Assembly: GCA_028282925.1 (NCBI GenBank)
Contig: JANQGV010000105.1
Coordinates: 1 to 33,725 of the forward strand
DNA: 33,725 nucleotides
Source of the DNA: Thermodesulfobacteriota bacterium
GTDB lineage: Bacteria > Desulfobacterota > WTBG01 > CAIYCZ01 > CAIRTM01
Direction of reading: 5' to 3'
Shown: positions 20,682 through 27,878 of the stretch, piece after piece
Numbering within the stretch: position 1 is the first letter of the stretch
Layout of the letters: each line of letters starts with the position of its first letter
Program-made: the position numbers and the translations under genes
Notes under the pieces: generated by a model
Databases searched by the model: none
What the model was told of the DNA's origin: nothing
What the model saw: only the letters and a program-made list of their open reading frames with translations

Positions 20682-21506
20682 ATGAATGCAGATTCTTTTA
20701 CAGATACAGCCACTGCATTTTTTGTATCTTTTAAAGCCCAGGCGGTGCATTTTTTGCCGAAGTTTCTTATTGCCGTCGGCATTGTTTTCTTGGGTATAGT
20801 GACGGCATATTGTATCCGGTTTGTGCTGACCCGTGGTATTAAAAAAATACTATCATTCCTTTCTCTTAATCAAAAATGTACTGCGTATGTTGATACGGTC
20901 CGGGTTGAGCGGTCAACCGCTTTGCTGTGTAATATTACGTACTGGTTAATCATCATTGTTTTCTTAACAATTGCCACCGAAGTTTTGGGATTACCTGTTG
21001 TAACCGCCTGGCTCAGTGGTATATCAACATATGTGCCGAAAATTTTTATTGCCCTGATTATCGGTTTCGGCGGAGTAATGGCGGCAAGTATCTTACGGGA
21101 TATCGTTACCGCCGCAGTCGGTACGGCTCAATCACCCTACAGCACCCTGCTTGGACGAGGATTGCAGTATCTGATTCTCATTCTGACACTGCTGATATGT
21201 ATTGATCAGATCGGTATCGAAATCACCTTACTGACCAATATTATCAGCATGCTTGTAGGTGCACTTGCCCTCGCTGTAGCACTTTCCTTCGGGCTGGGTG
21301 CAAAAACCTGTGTCAGTAATATCCTGGGAACCTACTACCTACAAAAACAGTATTCAATAGGCAGCATCGTTACCATTGACGACAAAACAGGCCAGATAGT
21401 CGGGATTACTCCAATGGCGGTCATTATTGAAACAGACGAAGGCCAAGTGTCTGTTCCATCAAAAAGGTTTAATGAAGCCGTATCTCTCTTATTGCACAGG
21501 GAATAA
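20682..21506 (+). CDS. MscS-family small mechanosensitive channel
   Basis: 274 residues from ATG 20682, which follows GGGGAGGG by about six bases. Hydrophobic segments lie near 17-45, 78-105, 110-135 and 155-205. The pore-lining segment LVGALALAVALSFGLGAKTCVSNILG (described by parts LALAVALSFGLG) corresponds to MscS TM3. It is followed by the beta domain with GSIVTIDDKTGQIVGITPMA and IETDEGQVSVPS. The protein stops soon after the beta domain, so it lacks the large C-terminal vestibule of E. coli MscS and resembles the short TM_helix-type members. It would relieve osmotic downshock or act as an ion channel in the inner membrane. It is four bases from the MgtE_N-like gene and probably co-transcribed with it. 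Confidence 0.9.
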   Translation: MNADSFTDTATAFFVSFKAQAVHFLPKFLIAVGIVFLGIVTAYCIRFVLTRGIKKILSFLSLNQKCTAYVDTVRVERSTALLCNITYWLIIIVFLTIATEVLGLPVVTAWLSGISTYVPKIFIALIIGFGGVMAASILRDIVTAAVGTAQSPYSTLLGRGLQYLILILTLLICIDQIGIEITLLTNIISMLVGALALAVALSFGLGAKTCVSNILGTYYLQKQYSIGSIVTIDDKTGQIVGITPMAVIIETDEGQVSVPSKRFNEAVSLLLHRE

Positions 21507-21510
21507 CAGT

Positions 21511-22317
21511 ATGAACAGTGACTGGTTGCTGGCGATACAATTTGCCGAAAAACACCCTCAAGATGCCGCCCGTGTGCTTGAAAAAATGAATACGGAGCAA
21601 TCCATTGCTTTTTTTGATACGGCGTCTTCATTGCAGGCGGCTGTTATACTGCAAAACATGGACCGGAACGCCGCCGTGCGTTGTCTGGAAACAATGGCAC
21701 CAGGTAAAACCTCTGCTCTTTTCAGCAACATGCCTTCACCAGTGGTTGCCGCCTTCCTCAGAACCATGGACATCAGTACCAGGGATCCTGTTTTAAGTGC
21801 TTTGCCGGAGACAAACCGTAAAGCTGTTGCTGCAAATCTACGCTACCGGGAAAACACCGTTGGTGCAATGATGAACACCGGTATCCTGGCAATTCCTGAT
21901 GATATTCTTACAAAAGAAGCGCTTAAAAGAATAAAAAAATATAAACAATATATCCATACGCATATCTATGTAACCAACCGTGATAATAAATTCGTCGGTT
22001 TATTAAAGTTTCGCGACATTCTTTTTGCCGGTCCTGGTACTTCTGTGTCGGAAGTCATGCGAAGCGGCATAAATCGTGTTATGCCGCGAACAGGTATTCA
22101 ATCCATTCTTCGCCTTTCATCATGGAATCAGTATCTGGCCCTGCCCGTAGTTGACAGAGAGGGCATATTGCTCGGTGAACTGGAGCATGCATCAATTGCC
22201 TCGGCACAGCCCGGTGTACCTTCTGCTGATTCCGTACAATTAAACGTTACGATTGGAAAGGCTTTTTTTGAATTGTATACCGCAGGATTGAATGCTCTCT
22301 TTACCAATCTACGTTAA
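21511..22317 (+). CDS. Soluble MgtE_N/CBS protein lacking the MgtE membrane domain
   Basis: 268 residues from ATG 21511, preceded by AGGGAA and only four bases after the MscS stop. Residues ~1-120 form the repeated helices of an MgtE N-domain (AARVLEKMNTEQSIAFF, AAVILQNMDRNAAVRCLETM, PSPVVAAFLRTMD). A CBS pair follows (~125-235: TVGAMMNTG, HIYVTNRDNKFVGLLKFRDIL, SEVMRSGINRVMP, LALPVVDREGILLG). There is no transmembrane segment and no MgtE pore signature. In full MgtE this half is the cytosolic Mg2+ sensor that closes the pore. Encoded between MscS and a complete MgtE, this protein may regulate either channel; that is inference. Confidence 0.85.
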   Translation: MNSDWLLAIQFAEKHPQDAARVLEKMNTEQSIAFFDTASSLQAAVILQNMDRNAAVRCLETMAPGKTSALFSNMPSPVVAAFLRTMDISTRDPVLSALPETNRKAVAANLRYRENTVGAMMNTGILAIPDDILTKEALKRIKKYKQYIHTHIYVTNRDNKFVGLLKFRDILFAGPGTSVSEVMRSGINRVMPRTGIQSILRLSSWNQYLALPVVDREGILLGELEHASIASAQPGVPSADSVQLNVTIGKAFFELYTAGLNALFTNLR

Positions 22318-22431: not shown

Positions 22432-23757
22432 ATGCAGGAAAATACGCAACCAGGTACGACGGTAACACAGCCTATGATCCAGGAGTTTTTTAACCGGTAT
22501 CCTGAAGAAGCAGCCCGATCGCTGTGCGTTTTAAGCGCAGGTGAAGCTTTGTTGCACCTCCAAACCGTTTCTGCAGAAATTGCTGCAAGAATCATAAGCA
22601 GTTTTCCCGGTGATGCGGTGGAGGCTTTATTTCCCGACATGGACGAACCCTTTTTTCAAAGTGTATTTGCAATTATTGAACCTGATCGTGCAGCAACCCT
22701 TCTCTCGCGCGTGAATGCGGACGAAGCAGAGAAGTTCCTCCTGTTGCTGCCGCCAAAACGTGCCTGCGAAATAAAGGAACTCATGGACTATCCTCCTGAG
22801 ACGGCCGGAAAACTGATGGACCCCCGTGTCGCCCTGTTTACCCGTGACATGACGGTTGAGGAGACGCTGGCGAAAATAAGAACATTATCCAATCGTCGTA
22901 TTATCGATGTATGTGTCATCGATGAAAATGAGCATCTTGTCGGAACGGTACCCCTGCAGGATATTGCCGTTTCAATGCCGGAGACCCACCTGGAAGAACT
23001 TTTTCACAAACAGCCTCTGAGCATCAACCTTATGGCCCCCAGGGATGAAATAGTAGAAATACTTGAATTTCATAAACTCACAACGTTGCCCGTTGTTGAT
23101 ATGGAGGGCAGACTGAAAGGCATTATTCGTTATGATGCTCTTATTGCCGCCGCCCAGGAAGATACCGCAAGCAATATGCAGAAAATGTTTGGAGCCGGCA
23201 AAGATGAACGTGCACTGTCCACCCCTTTTTTTGCTATAAAAAAACGACTTCCCTGGCTTGAAATAAACCTTGCGACAGCCTTTCTGGCTGCTGCAGTTGT
23301 CGGGGTTTTCGAAGACACTATTGCAAAGATTACCGCCCTTGCAGTTTTTCTGCCTGTGGTAGCGGGTCAATCCGGTAATACCGGATCCCAGTCTCTCGCG
23401 GTTGTTATGCGAGGGTTGGCCCTCAGAGAAATTCGCCCCGGTCATTGGTGGAAAGTTGCAAAGAAAGAGATGATTGTCGGCGCTTTTAACGGCACGATTG
23501 TGGCAATTACTACGGCACTTATAGCATACTTGTGGATGGGTTCTTCCGGTTTGTCCATTGTCATTGGGATTGCAATGATTCTTTCCATGGTTATTGCTGC
23601 ATTTTCAGGTGCAGTCATTCCCGTTATATTGAAAACTATAGGTTTTGATCCGGCTCAGTCCTCGTCCATTATTCTAACAACGGTCACGGATGTTGCGGGT
23701 TTTTTAAGCTTTCTCGGACTGGCGAAAATGTTGAGCGAAATGCTGAATATTGGTTGA
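22432..23757 (+). CDS. mgtE: MgtE-family magnesium transporter
   Basis: 441 residues, typical of MgtE. N-domain helices (~10-125), a CBS pair (~128-245), a plug helix, then five membrane helices (~275-441). The pore signature PVVAGQSGNTGSQSLAV is at 308-324. D406 in FDPAQSSSIILTTVTD (405-420) occupies the position of the conserved pore aspartate. It imports Mg2+ through the inner membrane and is gated by Mg2+ bound between N, CBS and plug segments. A good AAGGGG precedes ATG 22432. A 114-bp gap separates it from the soluble MgtE_N/CBS gene upstream; no M-box riboswitch could be recognised there. Confidence 0.95.
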   Translation: MQENTQPGTTVTQPMIQEFFNRYPEEAARSLCVLSAGEALLHLQTVSAEIAARIISSFPGDAVEALFPDMDEPFFQSVFAIIEPDRAATLLSRVNADEAEKFLLLLPPKRACEIKELMDYPPETAGKLMDPRVALFTRDMTVEETLAKIRTLSNRRIIDVCVIDENEHLVGTVPLQDIAVSMPETHLEELFHKQPLSINLMAPRDEIVEILEFHKLTTLPVVDMEGRLKGIIRYDALIAAAQEDTASNMQKMFGAGKDERALSTPFFAIKKRLPWLEINLATAFLAAAVVGVFEDTIAKITALAVFLPVVAGQSGNTGSQSLAVVMRGLALREIRPGHWWKVAKKEMIVGAFNGTIVAITTALIAYLWMGSSGLSIVIGIAMILSMVIAAFSGAVIPVILKTIGFDPAQSSSIILTTVTDVAGFLSFLGLAKMLSEMLNIG

Positions 23758-24295: not shown

Positions 24296-25606
24296 TTATT
24301 CTTGGCGAAGATACGACAGGGGCTCGGGAAGCGGGGTGCTGTTTCCCATGGTGTCCTCACCGTAATTGGCCTCTGCCAGAAGTTTTAGGTCCCGTATGGC
24401 GTTTTTGTCGCCCTGAAAAGCTATTTCGGTGATTCCTTCCTTTTTGATCATACCACCGGCCCACATGATGTCGATCACGCTGCTGGCGTCGAACTCCTTG
24501 TCCTGAACAAGCATGGTGACCTTTGATCCGTAATGGTTGCACACTTTTGCAACCAGGGTCGAGGGGCGCAGGTGGAACCCAAGGCCTTCAGGCACGTTTA
24601 CCGTTTCCTTGTCCACGACGGTGAACGTTTCGACAATTTCGTTTGCCAGGTTGATACCGTCTCCAATAAAGTGGGTATAATGGTACAGAGCAAAGTTTAC
24701 GATTGTATCGACAATCTTCTTCCTTTTGACAATCTTTTCAATTTTTTTCCGCGTTGCTTCATTACGTACGCTGAGTTCATGACGTTCAAAAAAATGACTG
24801 AGCGACTTGGCGATTCCAAGGAGATGCAGCGTTATGGATATATGTCCCCGCAGACTGCCGAGCATGCTGTTTTCAGATTCAAAAGGTGTTTTTTGAATAT
24901 AGGTATCATACATGGATTGCGCATTATGGACATGGGCTTCAAGATGACGCAGTGTTTCTTCGTTGATCTGGTCGGGAATGATATTGGTGTTGAGGTCTTT
25001 AACAGGGATTTTCTTATCGAATAGAATGATGCTTGAATCGTTGTACGTATCGATGAATTCTGTTGCAACACGAATAACATTATCATGAATGTCGGCGACC
25101 CCTTCATCGTTTATATTCTGAGGCAATACCTGAACAACGATTCTTTCTTCAAAGTTTTCTTCATTGATAAGCGCTTCAGGTATTGAAAGACCGAGGCTGA
25201 CTGCTTCCTGGGTGAGGCTGTTGAACAGACCCTTTAGAATACCATTCAGATAATTGAGGCGTTTGCCGGATTCCTTGATAAACGAGTCGGTTTTCTCACT
25301 GCGCAATTTGTAGAATTTAACCCGACTGAGAATGTGGCTGATCATGTAGGCGGTGCTGGAAATGTTTCTGATGGATGCTACGATTTCTCCGAAATAGAGC
25401 CATATTTTATTGTTTCGAGCACCATGGTCGTCAAGAAAGTCTTCAAGTTCCATCGACTCCTTGACAAGGGCGACATAGAGGCGTTTGCTGAACTTTGAAT
25501 CGGTATTGACATCAAAGTAATGCGCGAAGTTCAGTAAATTTACGGAAGCTTTTTCGGCAATGGGAACAAAGTCATCTTCTTTAATTATTTCTACGAAATA
25601 TTCCAT
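24296..25606 (-). CDS. HPr-like phosphocarrier domain fused to an unrecognised helical domain
   Basis: 436 residues. Residues ~1-330 are mostly helical and of no family I recognise; they are rich in charged residues (for example KFSKRLYVALVKESMELEDF at 38-57, and IEKIVKRKKIVDTIVNFALYHY at 289-310, shown here as parts). Residues ~335-415 are an HPr-type domain: EGLGFHLRPSTLVAKV places H345 at the position of the PTS phospho-histidine (H15 of HPr), with the RP that follows it, and DASSVIDIMWAGGM (373-386) matches the regulatory-serine helix (S375/S376). A ~20-residue Pro-rich tail follows. No enzyme I, EII or HPr kinase is in the window. ATG 25606 follows AGGA by eight bases and lies ten bases after the stop of the secreted repeat protein, so both are likely one operon. 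Confidence 0.85.
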   Translation of the reverse strand: MEYFVEIIKEDDFVPIAEKASVNLLNFAHYFDVNTDSKFSKRLYVALVKESMELEDFLDDHGARNNKIWLYFGEIVASIRNISSTAYMISHILSRVKFYKLRSEKTDSFIKESGKRLNYLNGILKGLFNSLTQEAVSLGLSIPEALINEENFEERIVVQVLPQNINDEGVADIHDNVIRVATEFIDTYNDSSIILFDKKIPVKDLNTNIIPDQINEETLRHLEAHVHNAQSMYDTYIQKTPFESENSMLGSLRGHISITLHLLGIAKSLSHFFERHELSVRNEATRKKIEKIVKRKKIVDTIVNFALYHYTHFIGDGINLANEIVETFTVVDKETVNVPEGLGFHLRPSTLVAKVCNHYGSKVTMLVQDKEFDASSVIDIMWAGGMIKKEGITEIAFQGDKNAIRDLKLLAEANYGEDTMGNSTPLPEPLSYLRQE

Positions 25607-25616
25607 TCACAAAATC

Positions 25617-27590
25617 CTATTCTACGGTAATGCCGTCAGAGGCGAAAAGTGAACCTGATTCTAACTGTTCAGTAAAGTTGCGTAAAGTCGTTTTTAAGTC
25701 TGTTGAGATGTCATGGTTTTCCATGCGGGTACTACTCTGTAGAAGAGCGTCAATCAGCTCTTTTGACACACGCACGGAACTGTTGGGCGTATATTCAGCA
25801 TTGTCTGTAAGAAATTGATGCAGAACAGCGCTGAGTTTTGCACGGATACTCGGATCTGTTTTTATGATTTTTGTAATCTCATGGGCATAGAGGTAAAGTG
25901 ACGAACTGTATTTGCTCAAAAGCGTAGATTCCTGAAAAACGCCGTCTCGCAACGACCGTAAATACGCAAGGGCACTCACCACGTCAGTGCCGGAATCTGT
26001 ACCGGTTTCGGCCAGCAGGGTGACAGGGCATGAAACCAGCCGGATGTTGATTTCCAGCTCACCGATGGTTTCATCAGGGGCAATGCGTTGTGAAGCGGTC
26101 AGGTAGCCGTCGGCGGAAAACGTAATGCGGGAAGGGCAAGAAGGGACACTCATACTGTACCTTCCGCTCGTGTCGGTCAGGGCCGTAGCTCCATGGTCGG
26201 CGCGAACCCGAACTCCGGCAATCGGTGCACTGCCGGTACTGTCCACTACAGTTCCTGAAACGGTTGTATGGTGGTCGGTTGAAAGTGAAACTGTTGTATT
26301 CAAAAGATCACCATAATCGATAGAAAAGGATTTTTCTTCGATTTCGTAACAGGCATGGCCCACCTCCAGAGTGTGCTCCCCCGGTTCAATATCAGCGATA
26401 TAAAAGGAGCCGTCCGAAGCACTTGAAGTGGAAAGTGTCGTGTCACCGTCAAGGACAATGGTTGCCCCGCTGATTGTGTGGTTGTCTGATGCGTCGTAAA
26501 TTATTCCGGACAGGTCGGCCAGTGGGTTAAGAGCGATATTTGCCGCCGTAGAGGCGTTATACAGCAATGTAACGGGCACCGTTGCCGTCTCATAGCCCTT
26601 TTTTGAAACGGTTATCGTTGAAGTGCATATGCTGCCGTACAGGTTGTACGTGCCGTTGATCTGGCCGGCACTTTTCATGCCCGTATCGGCAAGAATGTCC
26701 GCACCGGAAACCGGTTTTCCAGTAAGCGCGTCCGTAATAACCCCCTGCAAAAGGCCGCATCCGTTTCGGGCGGGATGTAGTTCGAAATCGGCGGCGGTCA
26801 CCGGCGGGAAAGACAGCAGTGATATTGTTTCATATCCGAATTGAAACGTCTCCGAACTGAAAAGCAGGGTCGTCAGTCCTGTGCCGGATTCAATGGAAAA
26901 AAAACCGTCATTGCTGATTGTGATGTCGCCTGTAGAGGAATGAACCCGCACGCCTGTTACATTTGCGGCCGAGCAGGCATTGATTATATGCCCGGAAACC
27001 TTTACTTCCTCATCGGGAGCTTTACGCAACGCAGCGTAAAGCCGGGTCGTCCGGTAGGAATCTATGGAAACACTGTTGAACACCCGTGAACTATACCCTT
27101 CGCAAAACACGGTTACGGTTGCACTGCCTGAAGGAGTGTCAAAAGAAAAATATCCATCATCATCCGTAAGTGTTATAGCGCCAAGGTCCGTTGCGACAAA
27201 GGCATTGTAGAACCCCTCATTGGTCTCGGCATCAACAACGCGGCCGGTAAGCGTTCCGGCTGGTGTTGATGCGGGGTAAAGCCAGATTGAAACCGTGGTG
27301 GTTTGGCCCGGTGAAGCCAGAATGCCGGTGAGCATGTTCGTACGGAACCCCGGCGACGATACGATCAGGTTGTACATATTGGGGGGGATGCGTAGCGTAA
27401 ACGTGCCGTTTGTCACGGTGGTTTGCAGGCCGGTCGTTGTATGGATTACAGCGCTGCTCACCAGGGAATTATTGAAGGCGTTGTAAATAGTACCGTTGAT
27501 AAATGCCGGCTGTATCGCGGACACCGGCTTTACGGTAAGCCCTACCAGTAAAAGAAAAAGAAAAATAGTGTATTTTTGCGATTGCTGCAA
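25617..27590 (-). CDS. Secreted protein with six carboxypeptidase-regulatory-like repeats
   Basis: 657 residues, TTG start with GGAG about ten bases upstream. A signal peptide (~1-25, cut after VSA) exports it. Six beta-sandwich repeats of the CarboxypepD_reg type follow, each opening with a G-x-(I/V) strand: FINGTIYNAF (~30), TLTGRVVDAE (~112), KVSGHIINAC (~196), LLQGVITDAL (~275), DLSGIIYDAS (~355) and TVSGTVVDST (~440), each with a DGxF/SGRY-like turn. The C-terminal ~130 residues are helical (ALAYLRSLRDGVF, LYLYAHEITKII) and resemble the CFI-box-type C-terminal domain seen in deltaproteobacterial surface proteins, though the CFI motif itself is not visible. It probably sits in the periplasm or on the cell surface. 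No enzyme domain is visible. Confidence 0.85.
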   Translation of the reverse strand: MQQSQKYTIFLFLLLVGLTVKPVSAIQPAFINGTIYNAFNNSLVSSAVIHTTTGLQTTVTNGTFTLRIPPNMYNLIVSSPGFRTNMLTGILASPGQTTTVSIWLYPASTPAGTLTGRVVDAETNEGFYNAFVATDLGAITLTDDDGYFSFDTPSGSATVTVFCEGYSSRVFNSVSIDSYRTTRLYAALRKAPDEEVKVSGHIINACSAANVTGVRVHSSTGDITISNDGFFSIESGTGLTTLLFSSETFQFGYETISLLSFPPVTAADFELHPARNGCGLLQGVITDALTGKPVSGADILADTGMKSAGQINGTYNLYGSICTSTITVSKKGYETATVPVTLLYNASTAANIALNPLADLSGIIYDASDNHTISGATIVLDGDTTLSTSSASDGSFYIADIEPGEHTLEVGHACYEIEEKSFSIDYGDLLNTTVSLSTDHHTTVSGTVVDSTGSAPIAGVRVRADHGATALTDTSGRYSMSVPSCPSRITFSADGYLTASQRIAPDETIGELEINIRLVSCPVTLLAETGTDSGTDVVSALAYLRSLRDGVFQESTLLSKYSSSLYLYAHEITKIIKTDPSIRAKLSAVLHQFLTDNAEYTPNSSVRVSKELIDALLQSSTRMENHDISTDLKTTLRNFTEQLESGSLFASDGITVE

Positions 27591-27659: not shown

Positions 27660-27878
27660 TTAATCGTCATCATCGGTCTGTGCAGGCTCGGGAGTTTCTT
27701 CTGTTTCGCCGGCATGCTTGCTTGATATTCTTTCAATCAGCCCGATCGGCTCATGTTCTATTTCAATTTTTTCAAATTTATCAGACGCATCTTCAATTTT
27801 GTTTTTTACGGAATTAAGATAGGTCTGCTGTTCGTGTGAGTCTCTTTTATCAATTAAACGCTTGTCTTTTTGGTCCAT
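27660..27878 (-). CDS. Small acidic protein, hypothetical
   Basis: 72 residues, highly charged. The N-terminal half is KD-rich and helical (MDQKDKRLIDKRDSHEQQ), then NSVKNKIEDASDKFEKIEIE, ending in an acidic tail ETPEPAQTDDDD. No membrane segment or known motif. GAGGT stands about ten bases before the ATG, and the gene fits the spacing between the MerR gene (32 bp upstream) and the secreted protein gene (69 bp downstream). That context and the clean ribosome-binding site argue that it is real. Function unknown. Confidence 0.6.
   Translation of the reverse strand: MDQKDKRLIDKRDSHEQQTYLNSVKNKIEDASDKFEKIEIEHEPIGLIERISSKHAGETEETPEPAQTDDDD

Follow-up and report, generated by a model that had tools for sequence, protein, structure and literature searches.

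HPr is normally a small, free and diffusible carrier, and in the known fusions its partners are other PTS domains. The sections consulted of a study of PTS evolution (PMC2405797) describe HPr fused to EI and IIA domains, and the searched passages of a 2026 review of PTS-Ntr (PMC13104625) contain no long HPr protein of the type analysed here. Nor did searches restricted to the open-access literature turn up an account of this architecture. The protein is encoded in the window, by which we mean the whole 33,725-nucleotide stretch of Thermodesulfobacteriota DNA that was analysed, and its features are collected in Table 1. In it, an HPr domain is joined to a strongly conserved new helical domain, and in one lineage the free HPr has been displaced.

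Table 1 Features of the long HPr protein gene and its neighbour in the window
Feature	Coordinates	Strand	Basis
Long HPr protein gene, stop included	24296..25606	-	ATG start, 436 aa
N-terminal domain, residues 1-330	24617..25606	-	Two tandem four-helix bundles predicted, no known family
C-terminal HPr domain, residues 331-418	24353..24616	-	PF00381 match; Foldseek against solved HPrs
H345 codon, equivalent of HPr His15 (phosphorylation site)	24572..24574	-	Alignment to HPr His; in GFHLRP
R347 codon, equivalent of HPr Arg17	24566..24568	-	Invariant in 31/31 orthologues
S376 codon, equivalent of HPr Ser46	24479..24481	-	Ser 29/31, Asn 2/31
Conserved C-terminal tail, residues 419-436, NYGED just before	24299..24352	-	Invariant residues in 31 orthologues
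Preceding gene	25617..27590	-	657 aa, secreted-looking, five CarboxypepD_reg repeats; stop 10 bp before HPr gene

Results

The C-terminal HPr domain

PF00381 matches residues 334-384 of the long protein with E=9.3e-7 and 29.3 bits, against a curated Pfam cut-off of 23, and phmmer aligns residues 334-418 with a Thermoanaerobacter HPr. The NCBIfam HPr model TIGR01003 matches below its own cut-off (34.4 versus 47.9) and, judged by its sequence, the domain is a divergent HPr. The full-length AlphaFold2 model (pLDDT 88) nevertheless has the HPr fold, with a Foldseek probability of 1.00 against solved HPrs and a target-normalised TM-score of up to 0.81, and complexes of HPr with Rsd and with glycogen phosphorylase are among the structure matches. 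H345 and R347 are invariant in all 31 full-length orthologues and a serine is kept at position 376 in 29 of them, which argues that the HPr match is not due to chance. The domain is followed by a tail, absent from classical HPr, with the pattern NYGE(D)..G....P..L..L; N414, Y415, G416, E417, G421, P427 and L433, in or near this tail, are invariant in the 31 orthologues.

The divergence of the domain could also be read as a sign that its sole function is to dock EI or an EIIA, with no use made of H345 phosphorylation, and non-catalytic interactions of HPr do exist in other bacteria, with Rsd and with glycogen phosphorylase. However, the invariance of H345 and R347 in 31 of 31 orthologues exceeds what docking requires, and we regard this explanation as very improbable.

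The N-terminal domain

The AlphaFold2 model of residues 1-330 (pLDDT 91, pTM 0.89) is nearly all helix, and from the order of its helices the domain is predicted to form two successive four-helix bundles. Even at E<=10, this domain had no credible Pfam or NCBIfam match in any of the 31 orthologues. No EIIA or EI domain accompanies HPr in the chain, either at E<=1 in 13 members of the family or at E<=10 in the 31 N-terminal domains. A profile of the domain gave short, implausible matches in the PDB; those to salivary D7 and complement proteins (best E=0.004, 80-100 residues) were taken as chance. These results bear out a sequence-only reading of the window, which had described an HPr domain on a helical protein of ~330 residues matching no known family, with H345 and the regulatory-serine helix of HPr kept.

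A Foldseek comparison of the domain model with 350,542 PDB chains returned nothing below E=0.13. The best match, 6rn5 (PptA, a CHAD-type phosin), has a probability of 0.75, and CHADs are likewise built from a pair of four-helix bundles in which His and basic residues are conserved (PMC6537752), so that the N-terminal domain might be imagined as a distant CHAD that binds polyphosphate and links it to the PTS. However, this match has E=0.13, a TM-score of 0.25-0.28 and an rmsd of 17.9 over the full length, a profile comparison with five CHADs gave a probability of 1.2% compared to 97.5% for a CHAD control, and PF05235 matches none of the 31 orthologues. CHAD membership was rejected, and even a distant relationship seems to us barely credible. 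Two further candidates were also rejected. For an Rsd/AlgQ-like anti-sigma domain, prompted by the rpoD neighbourhood of the gene elsewhere in the family, Pfam gave no match at E<=10, and the top structure matches listed for the domain did not include Rsd. A duplication between the two helical halves received an hhalign probability of 0.5%, despite SHxxxR motifs that look similar by eye.

The most conserved residues of the domain (E55, D59, W69, E74, H91, R95 and E134 in the first half, and H227, D234, R253, H261, H271, R275 and H276 in the second) are polar and are located in helices. This pattern of conservation suggests that the domain carries a putative ligand- or partner-binding site.

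Distribution and conservation of the family

Of 395 sampled genomes of the phylum, about 10% contain a full-length orthologue, and these orthologues are spread over many Desulfobacterota families; the named records with the family are Thermodesulfobacteriota/Deltaproteobacteria MAGs, and none was found in the viral contigs searched. The architecture is constant in the 31 orthologues, with the N-terminal domain and HPr together in every intact orthologue found, and in the 395-genome sample the N-terminal domain was seen without HPr solely in pieces cut by contig ends. Values of dN/dS, for some of which dS is near saturation, are 0.03-0.21 for the N-terminal domain and 0.02-0.29 for the HPr part. 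On this evidence both domains are under purifying selection and the long HPr is a real family. In the protein tree, the rows of the window's own family (f1) and of a related one (f2) group together (99/100), as do those of a second related family, f3 (100/100).

Gene neighbourhood

In the window, an AGGA Shine-Dalgarno-like stretch lies ~8 nt upstream of the ATG of the long HPr gene and shares nucleotides with the preceding gene's stop codon; this overlap and the 10-bp spacing suggest that the two genes are probably co-transcribed here. The product of the preceding gene has a signal-peptide-like start; only some members of the family have this gene next to that of the long HPr. It is itself preceded by a conserved charged ORF of 72 aa (27660-27878), and upstream of the long HPr gene the window also contains merR-type, IHF/HU-like (by eye), pheT, pheS, rplT and infC genes. 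The neighbours differ by family, with pheST-ihf-merR in the window's family versus rpoD-nif3-Zn ribbon-sufC/sufBD-ispD in other families, where the ABC ATPase beside sufBD is probably sufC, and we found no operon partner of the long HPr gene that is conserved across the family. Elsewhere in the window, a gene for a protein with an MgtE N-domain and CBS and no Pfam-detected transporter domain (21427-22317, +) is followed directly by a complete MgtE magnesium transporter gene (22432-23757, +).

PTS components in the genome

No EI, EIIA/B/C or HPrK domain was detected in the window genes scanned with Pfam, and the long HPr gene is near neither EI nor ptsN in its genome. PF00381 occurs once in this genome, which is 96% complete, and this single match is the long HPr gene. 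Enzyme I (PF05524) also occurs once, as a complete protein of 593 aa whose domains are PEP-utilisers_N, PEP-utilizers and PEP-utilizers_C, with no GAF, and whose active-site motif is GGKTSHTAIMARA. PF00359 (EIIA-Ntr type) is present three times, in a clustered ptsN, in a separate 151-aa protein and in a fusion to a C4 zinc ribbon, and EIIA-Man is present once. The clustered ptsN lies in the order rpoN-hpf-ptsN-rapZ-EIIA-Man (manX), followed by a GNAT gene and with no HPr. The candidate acceptor histidines are kept in the GIAIPHG and VGHC motifs of the EIIAs of this cluster, and the two other EIIA_2 proteins keep FPH/IPH histidine motifs. The fusion (L079:5984-6820, on G000:C323) is a 279-aa protein that combines a C4-type zinc ribbon (PF02591) with an EIIA-Ntr-type domain bearing the FPH motif; it is an unusual EIIA fusion, through which the same relay may have a further output.

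HPr kinase is absent from the window's genome, and PF07475 scores above its cut-off in none of the 38 carrier genomes. Sub-threshold HPr kinase-like matches cover just 40-60 residues, in the P-loop region, and were set aside as none reaches the cut-off. Because no carrier has an HPr kinase above cut-off, S376, which the sequence-only reading had labelled 'regulatory', is probably structural. Taken together, the rpoN-hpf-ptsN-rapZ-manX cluster, the acceptor histidines and the lack of HPr kinase fit a nitrogen-PTS-like setting.

The same reading had proposed a nitrogen-PTS-like regulatory sensor with no PTS enzyme nearby. The second part is correct for the window genes scanned and fails for the genome, which has EI, three EIIA-Ntr-type proteins and EIIA-Man; of the first part, the PTS-Ntr-like setting fits, but the long protein, as the only HPr of the genome, should be the phosphocarrier itself and not an extra sensor. 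A search of the genome for enzyme I and HPr kinase, which it had suggested, gave a complete EI and no HPr kinase. The two observations that it had named as counting against it, absence of any enzyme I and loss of H345 in orthologues, were not made, as EI is present and H345 is invariant.

Loss of the free HPr gene

The gene order rsmI-HPr-EI is found outside the window's lineage in G013, which belongs to the same class, and in G049, G223 and G094. In the window's family and the two related families, EI comes immediately after rsmI, and no HPr lies between them. The rsmI-EI gaps in nine genomes of this lineage are -4, -1, 2, 31, 39, 85, 107, 121 and 125 bp, which leaves no room for an HPr gene, and the 444-bp gap of the window's own genome contains no HPr-like remnant. 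Because this genome is a 324-contig assembly, a free HPr might conceivably lie elsewhere in it; however, an assembly gap is unlikely, since the same loss is seen in relatives with intact rsmI-EI junctions. One of these genomes, G008, has a second, free HPr in an ABC-transporter/NMT1-like operon, and its rsmI-EI gap of 2 bp indicates that the ancestral free HPr gene was lost there too. This free HPr (L105:4023-4373, on G008:C30) adjoins a 326-aa protein without a Pfam match and has no obvious PTS context. The tree is compatible with either one shared loss or separate losses in f1/f2 and f3, and either may have occurred. The long protein is also the only HPr detected in G145, a distant carrier.

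About two thirds of the carrier genomes encode a free HPr in addition to the long protein. PF00381 scores of the long proteins are mostly 25-38 bits in genomes without a free HPr, compared to mostly 21-26 bits or undetected in genomes with both, as expected if the long protein must do the general job where it is alone; the contrast is no more than suggestive, since the two groups follow phylogeny. Among the free HPrs of the other Desulfobacterota carriers (L134-L155), many have GLHARAA, GLHARSA or GLHARCA, not GLHARPA; many free HPrs of carriers thus have another residue in place of the proline that follows the active-site arginine, and the long proteins keep this proline.

Discussion

As the simplest account of these observations, the long protein has most likely become the only EI-to-EIIA phosphocarrier in the window's lineage: as the only HPr in the genome, it should be the phosphocarrier itself. 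We hypothesize that it carries phosphate in a regulatory, PTS-Ntr-like chain and that its N-terminal domain is a regulatory or partner-binding module, a reading to which we assign a probability of roughly 0.68. In such a chain, phosphate would pass from PEP to enzyme I, whose gene lies in another part of the genome, and on to H345 of the long protein; phospho-H345 would then donate it to the EIIA-Ntr proteins and EIIA-Man. Both transfers, by EI and to the EIIAs, are deduced from the components present: an HPr domain with its catalytic residues in the sole detectable HPr, together with EI and the EIIAs, in a genome from whose ancestral site HPr is gone.

Coexistence with a free HPr in most of the phylum indicates that the original job of the long protein was something other than that of general phosphocarrier, and because the N-terminal domain is equally conserved where a free HPr remains, its role predates the takeover. 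We conjecture that the pair of bundles could be a regulatory or partner-binding module tied to the phosphorylation state of HPr, which likely either gates phosphate flow or delivers that state to a partner. Alternatively, the long protein could be a dead-end sensor, in which EI phosphorylates H345 with no onward transfer and the N-terminal domain, switched by the resulting state, acts on some target. In about two thirds of carriers the free HPr means that the long protein is not needed as a carrier, and by dN/dS the N-terminal domain is constrained as strongly as the HPr part, both of which would agree with a sensor; yet this would leave the EIIAs of the window's lineage without a donor although their histidine motifs are kept, and we consider it unlikely.

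A phosphocarrier acting in the PTS-Ntr-like chain would mean that a core phosphate-relay step probably runs via an uncharacterised regulatory protein in these uncultured Desulfobacterota. More tentatively, and on balance doubtfully, a class-level lineage may do without free HPr and send its whole PTS-Ntr relay via a carrier whose large N-terminal domain senses a metabolite or binds a partner from the core machinery and so gates phosphate flow; if so, the phosphocarrier would itself be the signal integrator, with an N-terminal fold not seen in solved structures. The long protein offers a concrete handle on the regulatory role of the PTS in Desulfobacterota, and the function of its N-terminal domain is directly testable.

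The long protein belongs to the HPr domain family but not to the classical HPrs, the FPr/DTPs or the multiphosphoryl transfer proteins. It shares with classical HPr/NPr (PF00381) the HPr fold, the His15 and Arg17 equivalents, the Ser46 position and the hydrophobic face around 47-51, but whereas those are free proteins of 85-90 residues, here the HPr domain forms the C-terminal part of a 436-aa chain and is followed by a NYGED...PLP..L.YL tail; it is thus not a stand-alone ptsH/ptsO product of about 85-90 aa. FPr/FruB, the diphosphoryl transfer protein (IIA-M-HPr), likewise has HPr as the C-terminal domain of a larger protein; in contrast, the N-terminal part here is all-helical, with no EIIA-Fru domain, and the gene is not accompanied by a fructose operon. 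In DhaM and other multiphosphoryl transfer proteins, too, HPr is one domain of a multidomain protein, but the long protein has no EIIA-Man or EI domain in its chain. With CHAD (PF05235), the N-terminal domain has in common two tandem four-helix bundles and conserved His/Arg, although sequence homology is lacking and the structures superpose poorly. The proteobacterial PTS-Ntr (PtsP-NPr-PtsN) resembles the system described here in having EI, an EIIA-Ntr beside rpoN-hpf-rapZ, EIIA-Man and no HPr kinase; unlike it, EI here has no N-terminal GAF, and the carrier is the long protein, encoded outside the rpoN cluster.
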